From Populus alba (lineage: Eukaryota; Streptophyta; Magnoliopsida; Malpighiales; Salicaceae), in NCBI RefSeq assembly GCF_005239225.2, contig NC_133295.1, positions 6,696,001 to 6,760,000 of the forward strand: a stretch of DNA of 64,000 bases, given 5' to 3'. The position numbers and the translations under genes are program-made. Position 1 is the first letter of the stretch. Each line of letters begins with the position of its first letter. This document shows, piece by piece, positions 49,319 to 49,972 of this stretch. The notes beneath the pieces were generated by a model. That model saw nothing but the letters and a program-made list of their open reading frames with translations, did not search any database and was not told the DNA's origin.

Positions 49319-49972
49319 ATGGCAGGTTCCTCAAGTCATCACATAAAAAATATTTGTGTTTTCGGTGGATCCAGTCCTGGGAAAGAAAAAGAGTTTTTAG
49401 AATCAGCAAATCATCTTGGTCGGGTACTAGCTGAGAGAAAGATTCATTTAGTGTATGGGGGAGGCAGCCTTGGGTTAATGGGAGGTGTGTCAATGGCTGC
49501 ATTTTTAGGAGGCAGTCAAGTTTTGGGGGTTGTCCCCAAAGCTTTAGCAACTGGGGACATCATTGGAAAAACAATTGGAGAGGAACTACAGGTCCCAACA
49601 ATGTCTGACCGACTGAATACCATGTTTAACCATGCTGATGCCTTCATTGCCTTACCAGGTGGTCTGGGCACATTGGAAGAGATCTTTCATATTTCATCTT
49701 GGGCCCAATTGCACATTCACCATAAACCTATAGGTTTGTTAAATGTTAATGGTTTTTATGATAAGTTGCTGTCTTTCCTTGATCAAGCTGTGGAACAGGA
49801 ATTTCTAACATCTTCGGCACGACGAATCATAATCTCTGCTGCTACTGCTGAACAATTGATTGACCAACTACAATCTTTCATCCCTGTCATTGATCCCTGC
49901 ATGAGTCGTCTAGATTGGTCAACTAAGGAAAGCCGTAAAAAGCTTAGATTAGATTTGAGCCTTCATCTGTGA
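49319..49972 (+). CDS. LONELY GUY-type cytokinin-activating phosphoribohydrolase
   Basis: A 217-residue LOG-family enzyme, the usual full length. LOG releases the free cytokinin base from the riboside 5'-monophosphate in one step in the cytosol. The family features are present in order: a Rossmann-like start (ICVFGGSSPG, 12-21), YGGGSLGLMG (46-55), the Met-x-x-Arg segment with Arg 98, and the signature PGGLGTLEE (113-121), whose last-but-one Glu is followed by a second. The catalytic Arg and signature Glu are kept, and there is no stop or frameshift. Ordinary plant LOG genes have several introns; this one has none, so it was probably copied through RNA. It lies between the zinc-finger ORF and the element's 3' end, on the same strand. 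It differs from the commonest LOG proteins (SDRLNTM rather than a QRKAEM-type segment), so it belongs to a divergent subgroup. Activity is likely but unproven. Confidence 0.93.
   Translation: MAGSSSHHIKNICVFGGSSPGKEKEFLESANHLGRVLAERKIHLVYGGGSLGLMGGVSMAAFLGGSQVLGVVPKALATGDIIGKTIGEELQVPTMSDRLNTMFNHADAFIALPGGLGTLEEIFHISSWAQLHIHHKPIGLLNVNGFYDKLLSFLDQAVEQEFLTSSARRIIISAATAEQLIDQLQSFIPVIDPCMSRLDWSTKESRKKLRLDLSLHL

Follow-up and report, generated by a model that had tools for sequence, protein, structure and literature searches.

A LOG-like phosphoribohydrolase gene and a gene resembling viral cysteine-rich proteins, both with signs of purifying selection, in a Ty3/gypsy retrotransposon family of Populus alba

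The window analysed here, a 64,000-nucleotide stretch of Populus alba DNA (contig NC_133295.1, positions 6,696,001 to 6,760,000), contains a pol-deleted LTR retrotransposon with two accessory genes. We consider it fairly probable that this element belongs to a large, recently active Ty3/gypsy family, which we take to be Athila-like, and that both genes are under selection and act for the element. Situated between pol and the 3' LTR, they would encode a nucleic-acid-binding protein of the carlavirus type (hereafter NABP-like) and a plant-descended phosphoribohydrolase of the LOG (LONELY GUY) type. The use of accessory genes in plant LTR elements is mostly unknown; in this family two of them can be named, and both carry a signature of selection.

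Structural marks of an LTR retrotransposon are present in the window element (Table 1): LTRs with TG...CA ends, a target site duplication and a primer binding site, the latter presumably matching tRNA-Asp, as in Athila/Tat elements. The preliminary description had called the element young, with perfect target duplications, and had placed the LOG gene between an integrase remnant and the 3' LTR; we agree on each point, as the LTRs differ by two substitutions over 1738 aligned sites, in addition to their differences in length, the duplications are identical on both sides, and the frame upstream of the LOG holds an integrase zinc-finger remnant. That description overlooked the second accessory gene, and it did not recognize the element as a non-autonomous form, which it is because its frames show, in a Pfam scan, no reverse transcriptase (RT), RNase H or integrase core. 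Its gag/protease frame ends prematurely near position 47230; the corresponding frame is continuous in another copy from the same genome (L035). The spacer preceding the LOG, with its TATA-like motif, could possibly provide the gene with its own promoter, judging from these letters. Between the LOG and the 3' LTR, two 101-base direct repeats that are 77% alike occupy positions 50642-50892.

Table 1. Features of the retrotransposon, with positions counted from the first nucleotide of the window.
Feature	Position	Strand	Description or evidence
Target site duplication, left	43353..43357	.	AAAAC, 5 bases abutting the 5' LTR
5' LTR	43358..45096	+	TGAT...GTCA ends; 1739 bases
Primer binding site	45103..45120	+	TGGCGCCGTTGCCGGGGA, read in the window
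gag frame into protease region	45320..47239	+	Pfam PF03732
Protease end and integrase zinc-finger remnant	47232..48305	+	Pfam PF17921
ORF resembling virus-type nucleic-acid-binding/cysteine-rich proteins	48514..49062	+	182 aa; PF05515, PF01623
Spacer	49063..49318	+	GA repeat and TATA-like CTATAAAT about 70 bases upstream of the LOG start (sequence)
LOG-like phosphoribohydrolase ORF	49319..49972	+	217 aa; ORF list, Pfam PF03641, NCBIfam TIGR00730
3' LTR	51227..52974	+	TG...CA ends; 1748 bases
Target site duplication, right	52975..52979	.	AAAAC, 5 bases abutting the 3' LTR

The LOG frame runs without interruption from ATG to stop over 217 codons and belongs to the LOG/TIGR00730 family, matching PF03641 at 1.6e-38 and TIGR00730 at 173.3 bits (cut-off 96.35), so that the complete frame with PGGLGTLEE signature and catalytic arginine reported earlier is upheld. 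Across 38 family copies, the PGGxGTxxE motif and the catalytic residues are retained, with the Arg and both Glu present in every copy and Gly118 in 37. The closest solved relative is AtLOG3 (E 4.9e-60), and amino-acid identity amounts to 49-51% with AtLOG3, 45% with AtLOG8 and 47% with a Pseudomonas LOG. An AlphaFold2 model (pLDDT 90.3), computed from an alignment that included 29 bacterial LOGs, matched AtLOG3 best among PDB structures (TM-score by target 0.95) and AtLOG8 next, the scores ranging from 0.93 to 0.95. When this model was compared with viral structures in Foldseek, the single clear LOG-family match was a cyanophage protein with 25% identity, no closer viral kin appeared in that search, and a homology search confirmed no LOG relatives in viral contigs.

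The LOG in the element is not a single capture, because all 150 scored protein candidates from the same 416-Mb genome (the best 150 of 1784) match it at 96-100% identity and five copies with a full pol layout carry it too; the dispersal by a mobile element that had been envisaged in the preliminary description is thus matched by many copies. These protein matches extend over all 217 residues in 149 cases and over residues 1-213 in one; at the DNA level, the 40 scored candidates show 99-100% identity. The NABP-like protein gave a similar picture, with at least 96% identity in each of 150 scored candidates (the best 150 of 1716). Internal stops were absent from 140 of 150 LOG and 137 of 150 NABP-like candidates, shares that are biased upward since these are the best-scoring copies. 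The loci studied further are not a random sample: L015-L034 are 20 whole loci that form the first half of the 40 LOG DNA matches; L011/L035 is a full-pol copy, to which L012 and L013 were added; and L036-L055 are 20 NABP-LOG stretches, for the most part more diverged, that were hand-picked from a Pfam listing of the NABP gene. From the 44 loci given, 38 LOG copies were covered to at least 90%, and 21 of them are fully intact, as are 21 of 39 NABP-like copies. Both LTRs are complete in 12 of the 20 whole loci, where they differ by 0-18 substitutions per approximately 1730 sites (two pairs by none) and are flanked by perfect 5-base target duplications in ten cases, by a duplication with a mismatch in one, and by none in one; the remaining eight loci are truncated, were cut off by the fetch, or have unclear boundaries.

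Copies with a full pol layout (L021, L026, L028, L032 and L011/L035) contain both accessory genes, and the pair therefore belongs to the whole family and not just to the pol-deleted type seen in the window. Among these five, both genes are intact in L026 and L028. A stop interrupts the NABP-like gene of L021, whose LOG is undamaged, and the LOG carries an indel in L032 and a stop in L011, two copies in which the NABP-like gene is intact. In L021, the gag-pol stretch is an open frame of 1661 codons, and in L035 Pfam places protease, RT and RNase H in one frame and the integrase in the next frame downstream, which is the Ty3/gypsy order. The three frames of L035 that were scanned yielded neither a chromodomain nor a second (archaeal) RNase H, the absence of both being among the criteria for the Athila lineage alongside placement in RT/RH/INT trees (PMC6317226); our placement of the family in that lineage is tentative. 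Neither accessory gene is needed in cis, because there are recent insertions with a partial NABP-like gene as well as five loci lacking the LOG. In L019, L020 and L034, which have 0-3 LTR substitutions and perfect target duplications, the NABP-like gene is reduced to its 3' third (the LOG is intact in L020 and L034, and that of L019 has no stop codon), and in L012, L039, L049, L053 and L054 the NABP-like gene is present and the LOG is absent from its expected place, with just its last 38 bases left in L053 and L054. A second LOG subfamily, approximately 6% diverged from the window copy, comprises L036, L040, L043, L045, L047 and L052; its members have amino-acid differences in common (for example, Met for Leu at residue 99), and the gene is intact in L036 and L043.

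Sequence variants among these copies indicate purifying selection on both the LOG and the NABP-like genes in the sample examined. Variants present in at least two copies will mostly have arisen during replication of the element, and singletons mostly after insertion; we compared nonsynonymous-to-synonymous ratios (N/S) between the two classes, with expectations derived from the types of mutation observed, in 36 distinct LOG, 39 NABP-like and 15 gag copies. Shared variants had an N/S of 0.39 in the LOG (39 nonsynonymous, 38 synonymous; singletons 0.82, Fisher P 0.023), of 0.34 in the NABP-like gene (33 and 37; singletons 0.87, P 0.007) and of 0.16 in gag (24 and 55; singletons 0.53, P <0.0001), the significance being moderate for the two accessory genes. 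Shared ratios in their true frame ranged from 0.26 to 0.39, compared to 1.09-1.73 when the same genes were read in wrong frames or on the reverse strand; one control deviated, with a ratio of 0.74 (P 0.016) among the singletons of the LOG read in frame +2. The more diverged copies entering the test had been selected by the Pfam score of the neighbouring NABP-like gene, and the young LOG set by itself is too small to be significant (3 nonsynonymous, 4 synonymous, P 0.20). Codon models gave an omega of 0.437 for the LOG (15 of 36 distinct copies; P 1.3e-7 against omega fixed at 1) and of 0.362 for the NABP-like gene (21 of 39; P 4e-9), from hand-picked rows (for the LOG, copies free of indels in which any stops had been masked, and for the NABP-like gene the 21 copies that are intact), a choice that favours low omega. 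The preliminary description had named dN/dS near 1 and stops in most other copies as the pattern that would speak against it; that pattern did not appear, as shared ratios lie well below 1 and 21 of the 38 LOG copies examined are without lesions.

The substrate of the element LOG is a separate matter, and here the earlier assumption of a cytokinin-activating enzyme has become doubtful. In CgLOG, Arg99 and Glu122 are catalytic, and Met96, His97, Lys100, Glu125 and Trp129 form the proposed site for the prenyl group (PMC4979012). Mapped by alignment onto the 38 element copies in CgLOG numbering, the catalytic Arg and Glu are found in all 38, Met96 in 38 and Trp129 in 37, whereas the other three of the five pocket residues are replaced in every copy: His97 by Ser (38 of 38), Lys100 by Leu (32) or Met (6), and Glu125 by His (37) or Leu (1). 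AtLOG3 and AtLOG8 have His97, Lys100 and Glu125, and the 79 bacterial LOGs that we aligned (the best 80 of 592 relatives, with one omitted) have Lys in 79, Glu in 79 and His in 76. The base pocket was thus altered before the examined copies spread. Because the catalytic residues are kept and the base pocket is rebuilt, these residues make it likelier that the element LOG is a phosphoribohydrolase with a different or broader specificity than that it activates cytokinin in the normal way.

How both genes came to be where they are, and what they do there, can be read in other ways. They might be passive passengers hitchhiking on a successful element: recent copies without parts of either gene exist, and the copies are so closely related that there was little time for decay; yet the low shared ratios of the true frame, unlike those of the wrong frames, the omega values below 1 (P 1e-6 or less) and the invariance of the catalytic Arg and Glu even among copies 4-9% diverged make such hitchhiking very improbable. 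Somewhat more weight, while still unlikely, can be given to an ordinary cytokinin-activating LOG, with which the element would spread hormone activation and perhaps keep host cells dividing: the fold and the PGGLGTLEE motif are kept, as are the catalytic Arg98 and Glu121 together with Met95 and Trp128, and plant descent is favoured by the tree described below. Against it stand the three replaced pocket residues, which make cytokinin activation of the ordinary kind doubtful, since they comprise positions at which Lys and Glu are universal in the bacterial set and all five prenyl-site residues are identical across AtLOG3, OsLOG and CpLOG (PMC4979012). According to the same source, alanine substitution of AMP-binding or catalytic LOG residues, S19A excepted, abolishes activity almost wholly. 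The element LOG also scores 116.7 bits with the NCBIfam cytokinin equivalog NF058542, whose cut-off is 300, in a comparison that had no plant LOG scored alongside. Pocket residues alone leave the function unsettled, because wheat LOGs with identical critical residues are described as varying in activity (PMC11593424).

The missing introns would require no RNA step if the donor of the LOG had been a bacterium or some other organism outside the plants, and its identity to the Pseudomonas LOG (47%) is about equal to that with AtLOG3 (49%) and AtLOG8 (45%). We nevertheless regard such a donor as quite improbable: in a quick tree with two plant, 79 bacterial and no fungal sequences, three element LOGs group with AtLOG3 and AtLOG8 against the bacterial rows (SH-aLRT 93, branch not starred), and the best 80 of 592 bacterial relatives include none with more than 50% local identity. 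Plant descent by an old capture is favoured by this tree, in which the path to the element LOGs is long (1.76 changes per column), so that the capture would not be recent. A host LOG is expected to be much closer to AtLOG3 than are the element copies. When AtLOG3 was searched against the same genome, all 150 scored matches (the best 150 of 1492) covered most of the query at 49-53% identity, and many fell at known element copies; there was no closer uninterrupted match and no host exon or parent gene among them. The host LOG genes are thus probably split by introns, because an intronless one would have ranked above these matches, and capture through an RNA copy, which fits such genes, is plausible. 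The contrast that had been drawn between an intronless element gene and intron-bearing plant LOGs accordingly holds for the element frame, and for the host it has the indirect backing of the AtLOG3 matches. As to the 182-aa ORF, its likeness to viral proteins could have arisen by convergence of a basic stretch and cysteines, or viruses could have taken their gene from such an element, which we judge somewhat unlikely. The ORF exceeds the curated cut-offs of PF05515 (Viral_NABP; 2.1e-7, 31.6 bits against 23) and PF01623 (Carla_C4; 4e-6, 27.1 bits against 20.9), as do all 15 family copies given (the open frames among the 39 NABP-like copies later examined, with E up to 0.01), compared to none of ten shuffled sequences; PF05515 was found in none of 14 control genomes, which may not be plants. 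A basic stretch is followed by Cys85, Cys88, Cys93 and Cys97. The Pfam match is, however, confined to residues 37-120 (84 of 182), the single-sequence model is unusable (pLDDT 39), no solved relative turned up in the PDB at E up to 1, and no relatives in viral contigs were confirmed. Viral_NABP and carlavirus cysteine-rich proteins are encoded by positive-strand RNA viruses, and the gene described here lies inside an LTR element.

In the reading that we favour, both proteins serve the element, and the one resembling viral proteins would most likely work as its viral kin do, by suppressing RNA silencing or by regulation in the nucleus. Viral cysteine-rich proteins are described as suppressing RNA silencing and determining pathogenicity, and the protein from chrysanthemum virus B also as a transcription factor that induces hyperplasia (PMC12172455). 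The LOG, for its part, would cleave a nucleotide 5'-monophosphate, its specificity being shifted from, or relaxed relative to, ordinary cytokinin nucleotides, and the two proteins together might increase the permissiveness of the cell towards the element. Tentatively, then, the pair could constitute a permissiveness module borne and selected by the element, made up of a silencing suppressor or transcription factor of the RNA-virus type and a neofunctionalised LOG that reshapes a pool of nucleotides or a signal. Since one accessory gene resembles a class of proteins with reported anti-silencing activity, retrotransposon-borne counter-defence becomes a directly testable question, and the element LOG, with catalytic residues kept and base pocket replaced, amounts to a natural experiment in LOG specificity.

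The abstract of Steinbauerova et al. 2011 (Genetica) reportedly names two Athila-like elements similar to LOGL4. A YgdH/LOG domain has been listed in LTR-retrotransposon consensuses of Citrus sinensis and C. clementina, and of P. trichocarpa when a five-consensus filter is off (PMC9289625, section 12), a finding that its authors describe as agreeing with Steinbauerova et al. 2011, and the earlier statement that no named family of this kind was known needs amending in this respect. Those elements resemble ours in having a LOG-family domain in plant Gypsy-type elements, and they probably represent the same or a sister family; section 12 is a domain listing and includes for them no selection test, pocket analysis or virus-like neighbour gene. 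The observation is thus real and partly known: the LOG domain in LTR elements is published, and our literature search, which covered few subscription journals, found no report of a carlavirus-type protein in a retrotransposon, of selection on an element-borne LOG, or of the pocket change. Both accessory genes fall below the limit of a survey that recorded extra ORFs only from at least 250 codons upward (PMC6317226). An enzyme gene is likewise retained in Phalaenopsis Gypsy elements, where an AlkB-type RNA demethylase is proposed by the authors to exert epitranscriptomic control between host and element; these elements differ in their enzyme, in their size of 25 kb and in that activity was demonstrated in vitro (PMC9289625). 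With the cysteine-rich proteins of carlaviruses, allexiviruses and mandariviruses (PF05515, PF01623), the 182-aa protein shares a basic stretch and a Cys-rich region above Pfam cut-offs, but those are viral genes, and ours is retrotransposon-encoded and matched over less than half of its length. The element LOG has the fold, catalytic Arg and Glu, and PGGxGTxEE of AtLOG3, AtLOG8 and CgLOG, and departs from them in its three pocket residues, in its 45-49% identity to the Arabidopsis proteins and in being intronless in the element.

Directly upstream of the element, at positions 41106-42706, lies a third LTR-like copy with 62-89% identity to the element LTRs (in separate ungapped pieces), which is probably a solo LTR from a related family. 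Elsewhere in the window, host genes or exons resemble, judged by eye, a Kelch/F-box gene of the ZEITLUPE type (1168-2769), a PPR gene (21767-24283), a lysyl-tRNA synthetase exon (37480-38025) and a plasma-membrane H+-ATPase exon (62744-63460).
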